A DNA stretch of 64,000 nucleotides from Phycisphaeraceae bacterium (GTDB lineage Bacteria; Planctomycetota; Phycisphaerae; Phycisphaerales; Phycisphaeraceae), in assembly GCA_029260655.1 (NCBI GenBank), contig JAJDCU010000053.1, positions 1 to 64,000 of the forward strand, given 5' to 3'. Below, in pieces: positions 45,847 to 46,497 of this stretch. Position numbers and translations under genes: made by a program. The notes beneath the pieces were generated by a model. The model was given only the letters and a program-made list of their open reading frames with translations. It was not told where the DNA came from and did no database searches. The number at the start of each line of letters is the position of its first letter. The first letter of the stretch is position 1.

Positions 45847-46497
45847 CTACCGCATCGTTGGGATCAGGCCACGCCGGCACAGGATCGCGCCGCCGCATAG
45901 CAGCAGCACCACCGCGAGCGACATCGGCTCGGGGACGGTGGTGATCCCGACGTTCATGTTGTCGACGCCCAACTCAACGCTGAGGCCCTGCGACTGGTAG
46001 TCGCCCATGAACGCATACCCGAACTGGAAGGTCCGGCCAAAGTCCGGCTGACCAACGCCGCCGTCGGCCTCGAAGAAGTCCTGAGCAAGCAGGTGGGCGT
46101 CTCCGATCGTCAGCCAGCCTGCGCCTTGAGAAACAGACCCACCCGAGTTGCTCGCAAGGTAGACCTCGTCCTGCAGGATCGCCAGCGTCACCTCGATGTT
46201 AGCGGTCCCGGTAATCTCCGTCGGCAGCACATCGATAAAGAAGTCCATCGACTCAAGCCGACCCCGGCCCACCGGGTCAAACACAAAGTCCGTATCAAAG
46301 GGGTACGCCACCACAAAACTCTGCGGGCTGCCCGACCCGGGCGCGCTGAAAAACAGCTGTGTGCTGGGCGCGGGGTTCCCCTCCGTCTGTGAACCGTTGC
46401 CGGTCATTGTCAACTGACCGGACGTATCCGTGACGATCTGCGACACCGTGCCGATATTCACATGCGGCTTGGTGCGCTGAAAGTTCTCCTTGGCCAT
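45847..46497 (-). CDS. PEP-CTERM protein with an EF-Tu-derived N-terminus (chimera)
   Basis: A 216-residue protein. Residues 1-17, [17 protein letters not shown], are the standard N-terminus of elongation factor Tu (planctomycete EF-Tu begins MAK..[9 protein letters not shown].GTIGH). The match stops just before the EF-Tu GHVDHGKT loop. The rest is a beta-rich exported-type domain that ends in '[13 protein letters not shown]', a hydrophobic segment and CRR, a PEP-CTERM tail. The usual signal peptide is therefore missing or replaced. GGGAGGG stands before the ATG and a good promoter lies upstream, so it may be expressed. Export is doubtful. It could be a recent gene fusion or a decaying PEP-CTERM gene with a captured start. 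Confidence 0.8.
   Translation of the reverse strand: [216 protein letters not shown]

Follow-up and report, generated by a model that had tools for sequence, protein, structure and literature searches.

A PEP-CTERM gene of a Phycisphaeraceae bacterium that begins with the start of elongation factor Tu

The composite gene and its parts

The window, a stretch of 64,000 nucleotides from a Phycisphaeraceae bacterium (assembly GCA_029260655.1, contig JAJDCU010000053.1, positions 1 to 64,000), contains on its minus strand a gene for a protein of 216 amino acids (45847..46497, start codon ATG at 46497) in which an EF-Tu-type start, a jelly-roll core and a PEP-CTERM tail follow one another. The EF-Tu-like start comprises codons 1-17 (46447..46497, minus strand) and is modelled as a strand at residues 2-8 plus a loop. 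The native core, residues 24-187 (45937..46428, minus strand), belongs to an exported beta-sandwich (CBM11/CBM4/FlaA-like) family, and the tail, residues 188-216 (45850..45936, minus strand), consists of VPEP and a hydrophobic helix followed by a C-terminal stretch (TIGR02595). A Shine-Dalgarno-like GGGAGGG (46503..46509, minus strand) precedes the ATG.

We found residues 1-17 to be identical at 13 of 17 positions to the EF-Tu encoded in the same genome (G000:C7:4267-5469, minus strand) and at 15 of 17 to several other Phycisphaerae EF-Tu proteins. As a chance control, the start-codon 17-mers in the window (n=3,772) were compared with the same EF-Tu, and apart from this one they reached at most 6/17. 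In a BLASTP comparison of the whole protein with its own EF-Tu, 16 of 33 residues were identical (residues 1-33, E 4e-7). Among NCBIfam models, those of EF-Tu match residues 1-22 and PEP_CTERM TIGR02595 matches residues 188-209 (18.7 bits against a cut-off of 16); nothing was found in Pfam at E<=1, the tail included. These results bear out a first-pass annotation of this DNA, which had described the gene as a combination of an EF-Tu start and a PEP-CTERM tail. As in other prokaryotic composite (chimeric) genes, segments of otherwise unrelated gene families, both backed by homologs, are joined in frame; what differs here is that a housekeeping gene contributed only its first ~17 codons, that they replace a signal peptide, and that a second donor served a sister clade. 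The likeness to EF-Tu (tuf, TIGR00485 / NF009372) covers the first 17-22 residues and ends near residue 17-33, whereas the P-loop GHVDHGKT, domains 2-3, the GTPase and all other EF-Tu parts are absent, and the promoter is the gene's own.

At the nucleotide level, the top non-self match of the 5' part of the gene within its own 3.5 Mb genome was the start of tuf (31 nt, 84%, E 0.047). Upstream of the ATG, no similarity between the gene and its own tuf was detected. An in-frame TGA lies five codons 5' of the ATG, which excludes a longer start with a hidden signal peptide, and window hydropathy revealed no hydrophobic N-terminus of the kind carried by PEP-CTERM cargo.

Orthologs, selection and the donor

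Three congeneric MAGs (G005, G004 and G001) carry orthologs with the same EF-Tu-type start at 85, 76 and 75% amino-acid identity, while none was seen in two further genomes of the genus (G003, and G002, which is only 79% complete); all family members come from draft MAGs. Across the four orthologs, codons 2-24 gave dN of 0-0.09 and dS of 0.18-1.24, the ratios being rough for so short a segment. The core gave dN of 0.10-0.22 and the tail 0.04-0.15, and no other part is as well conserved at the protein level as the EF-Tu-type segment. Between G005 and G004, this segment differs by six synonymous changes and no amino-acid change. Codons 2-24 are under purifying selection, and the join has been kept in at least four species. 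The low dN relative to dS indicates that the segment is very probably translated and retained for its amino acids. The suggestion that the gene might be an orphan therefore fails: three further species share the join, and purifying selection acts on the joined codons.

A sigma70-like promoter, TTGTCA-N18-TATGAT (46595..46624, minus strand), was recognised by eye and by alignment; its position is conserved in the four orthologs and it is unlike the tuf promoter. Since a TTGYYR-N18-TATRNT element is common to all four at ~100 nt upstream, the composite gene appears to use its own promoter. The start codon is GTG in three of the four orthologs. It had been supposed that the tuf start, perhaps along with its ribosome site, conferred strong translation, and a transfer of the tuf promoter was also considered. 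Neither idea agrees with a region upstream of the ATG that is unlike tuf, with a promoter shared by the orthologs, with the GTG starts, or with the conservation of amino acids rather than codons. The locus of the gene in its own genome differs from that in G005 and G004, where it lies elsewhere than beside the upstream neighbour found here, indicating that the gene has changed place. This neighbour (46668-47789, minus strand; homologs L152-L154) is kept at 67-68% identity in G003, G004 and G005, with no composite gene adjoining it.

All of the ~30 tuf starts of the family and order that we read have NVGT, and the NIGT of the fusion occurs in none of them. The best of these starts match the fusion at 15 of 17 positions (for example that of G028, and those of order members), and those of its own genus match at 13, which does not favour the present tuf of the same genome as the donor. 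The join is old, and its donor would be either an ancestral or a foreign tuf. Among the matches listed from two overlapping sets, 201 relatives and 397 genomes of the class (the latter queried with the N-terminal 29 residues of the composite protein), no other fusion with an EF-Tu-type start was seen. Besides the composite-gene family, those matches were either EF-Tu-sized frames or short frames near contig ends, of which the one in G158 was checked and the others were judged by their coordinates. The retained stretch coincides with elf18, the EF-Tu N-terminal epitope of plant immunity; mimicry of this epitope was considered, but nothing ties these bacteria to plants.

The exported relatives and a second borrowed start

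Distant homologs of the core in five genomes (G011, G167, G189, G111 and G039) are of PEP-CTERM type and possess an ordinary signal peptide, behind which come a first strand, ITFxDGTF...W, and the shared GGNPG block. These relatives support the proposal that a PEP-CTERM gene of exported type acquired a tuf-type start and lost its signal peptide; the accompanying suggestion of a cost in export may also apply. The composite protein was modelled as a jelly-roll with a mean pLDDT of 81.8 (AlphaFold, 12-row alignment). Its best PDB neighbours in Foldseek are the FlaA1 sheath protein and CBM11/CBM4/CBM27 (E 5.6e-6 to 5e-3, TM 0.4-0.5). The likeness to CBM11/CBM4 and FlaA sheath proteins (E 5.6e-6 to 1e-3) is one of fold, taken from a predicted model, as sequence identity is only 8-14% and no Pfam CBM family matches. 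The modelled first strand consists of the EF-Tu-like residues 2-8 and the second of residues 19-24, with a pLDDT of only ~62 at residues 11-20. Because matching strands occupy residues 27-30 and 40-47 in the model of an exported homolog (mean pLDDT 72.5), the borrowed peptide plausibly stands in for the signal peptide plus strand 1.

A pattern-seeded search of 84,980 species genomes, by which distant members are missed, located the core at only five loci. No core homolog was found in viral contigs, phages or plasmids. Phage and plasmid matches were confined to N-terminal residues (about 1-53), and several are annotated as EF-Tu; the one record opened, that of Moraxella phage Mcat7, holds an intact EF-Tu frame.

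Two further loci, G004:C82 (with a partial copy at C152) and G018:C29, encode the same core but start with MAKKISGSVGKGGKN. The G018 start reads MAKKISGSVGKGGKNKPDDTVVVQELLN, and a near-identical query matched the N-terminus of a G381 protein with 71% identity over 28 residues; the pairwise comparison of the G018 and G381 starts gave E 1e-10. Peptidoglycan-binding matches of the G381 protein are weak, lying just below the Pfam cut-offs (PG_binding_3, 24.0 against 24.6; PG_binding_1, 20.9 against 23). With a peptidoglycan-binding-like start occupying the same position in a sister subfamily, the family took its starts from two different genes. In a tree of the core, all six proteins without a signal peptide fall into one clade (bootstrap 99), in which the four with the EF-Tu start group with a support of 82-93 (bootstrap 82; local support 0.92) and the two with the MAKKISGSVGKGGKN start with a support of 90. 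Either two successive exchanges of the start took place, or each subclade underwent one of its own. Both joins display a weak resemblance between donor and core (EF-Tu DHGKTTLTA at the tuf-type join, GNPAPSAEL at the other), as recombination between short similar stretches would lead one to expect; this is suggestive only.

In G004, both MAKKISGSVGKGGKN-start genes are immediately preceded by a different PEP-CTERM gene. Its product bears a signal peptide, and three protein-kinase motif blocks, FKHEANVMGKLGNHPNIVQFIG, GIVHRDIAARNFLV and GVGPVRWMAPESL, alternate in it with non-kinase sequence. It is encoded at L100 (G004:C152, 341-997, minus strand), at L108 (G018:C53:36108-36764, minus strand) and, partially, at L099 (G004:C82, 5579-5921). 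The blocks are nearly invariant across two genera at a whole-protein identity of 46%, and a search of a phylum sample of 392 genomes (E<=1e-12) gave no counterpart in any of the remaining genomes.

Localisation and competing explanations

Signal peptides occur in 97% of PEP-CTERM proteins (PMC1569441). The genome and its congeners each have ~150 matches to the PEP-CTERM model, many of them over the cut-off and often in tandem clusters. Among 80 PEP-CTERM genes surveyed with our own filter, the composite-gene family was the only one without a hydrophobic start, apart from five exceptions: the signal of four is weak ('YSAAAGLGAF'), and the start of the fifth is uncertain. A start of the type YSAAAGLGAFxxGxxAQA, which is atypical and weakly hydrophobic, recurs in a PEP-CTERM set (L062, L063, L067 and L068). 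The composite protein resembles exosortase cargo (TIGR02595; Haft 2006, PMC1569441) in its PEP motif, hydrophobic helix, RR and beta-sandwich body, and differs from it in lacking a signal peptide and in its cytosolic-type beginning.

We consider an ancient and fixed replacement of the gene start, with a borrowed strand and retention on the cytosolic side, to be the probable explanation as a whole. In the genus ancestor, an exported CBM-like PEP-CTERM protein would have lost its signal peptide and first beta-strand, and the first ~17 codons of tuf would have taken the vacated place, fused in frame immediately before the native second strand (..VSQIVTD). In the sister subfamily, a peptidoglycan-binding-like protein start would have been put in the same position. 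The borrowed peptide would then supply the jelly-roll with its N-terminal strand. As a Sec signal is lacking, the protein may remain cytosolic, with the hydrophobic tail anchoring it to the inner membrane, and so escape sorting by exosortase; to this part of the explanation we give perhaps even chances.

That the tuf start was kept merely for efficient initiation by its first codons, the peptide being irrelevant, has in its favour that tuf is a highly expressed gene. This reading is nevertheless highly improbable, because the amino acids are conserved although synonymous sites have diverged (dS up to 1.24 against dN of 0-0.09), because neither the 5' UTR nor the promoter of tuf came along, and because of the GTG starts. 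The fact that all genomes are MAGs could point to an artefact of assembly or binning, or the resemblance could be fortuitous. The in-frame join is, nonetheless, common to separate MAGs with diverged sequences, and no control 17-mer came near the observed identity, so that we reject this reading, whose probability is negligible, in view of the orthologs with the same join.

All six proteins that lack a signal peptide have kept the PEP triplet and RR unchanged (6/6). This would be unexpected if exosortase never met them, and it argues against a simple loss of export; together with the general rule on signal peptides, the retained tail hints that exosortase may still meet these proteins. The borrowed starts might accordingly be non-classical export or targeting signals that bring the protein to the envelope in the absence of a Sec signal peptide, with its PEP-CTERM tail still processed. 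The low dN of the tail, the strong conservation of the EF-Tu-type segment and a report describing EF-Tu itself on bacterial surfaces (PMC5593925) agree with such a route. On the other side, the EF-Tu start has no known export signal, one and the same position is occupied by two unrelated starts, and nearly all PEP-CTERM proteins have signal peptides, so that we hold this route to be unlikely. We lean, if only slightly, towards a protein that stays inside, perhaps at the inner face. A bolder version is more doubtful still: the EF-Tu and peptidoglycan-binding-like starts would be functional replacements for signal peptides, amounting to a new signal-peptide-free addressing in a lineage that habitually builds envelope proteins from cytosolic pieces (compare the kinase-motif mosaic described above).

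Start replacement remains our preferred reading. The family provides a clear, phylogenetically bracketed swap of a gene start for a housekeeping one that was subsequently kept by selection, and the same family additionally acquired a second, unrelated start. The case also warns that N-terminal similarity can mislead annotation. It shows how the compartment or the addressing of a protein can be changed in one step; should export persist, the family would contradict the rule that a PEP-CTERM protein requires a signal peptide.
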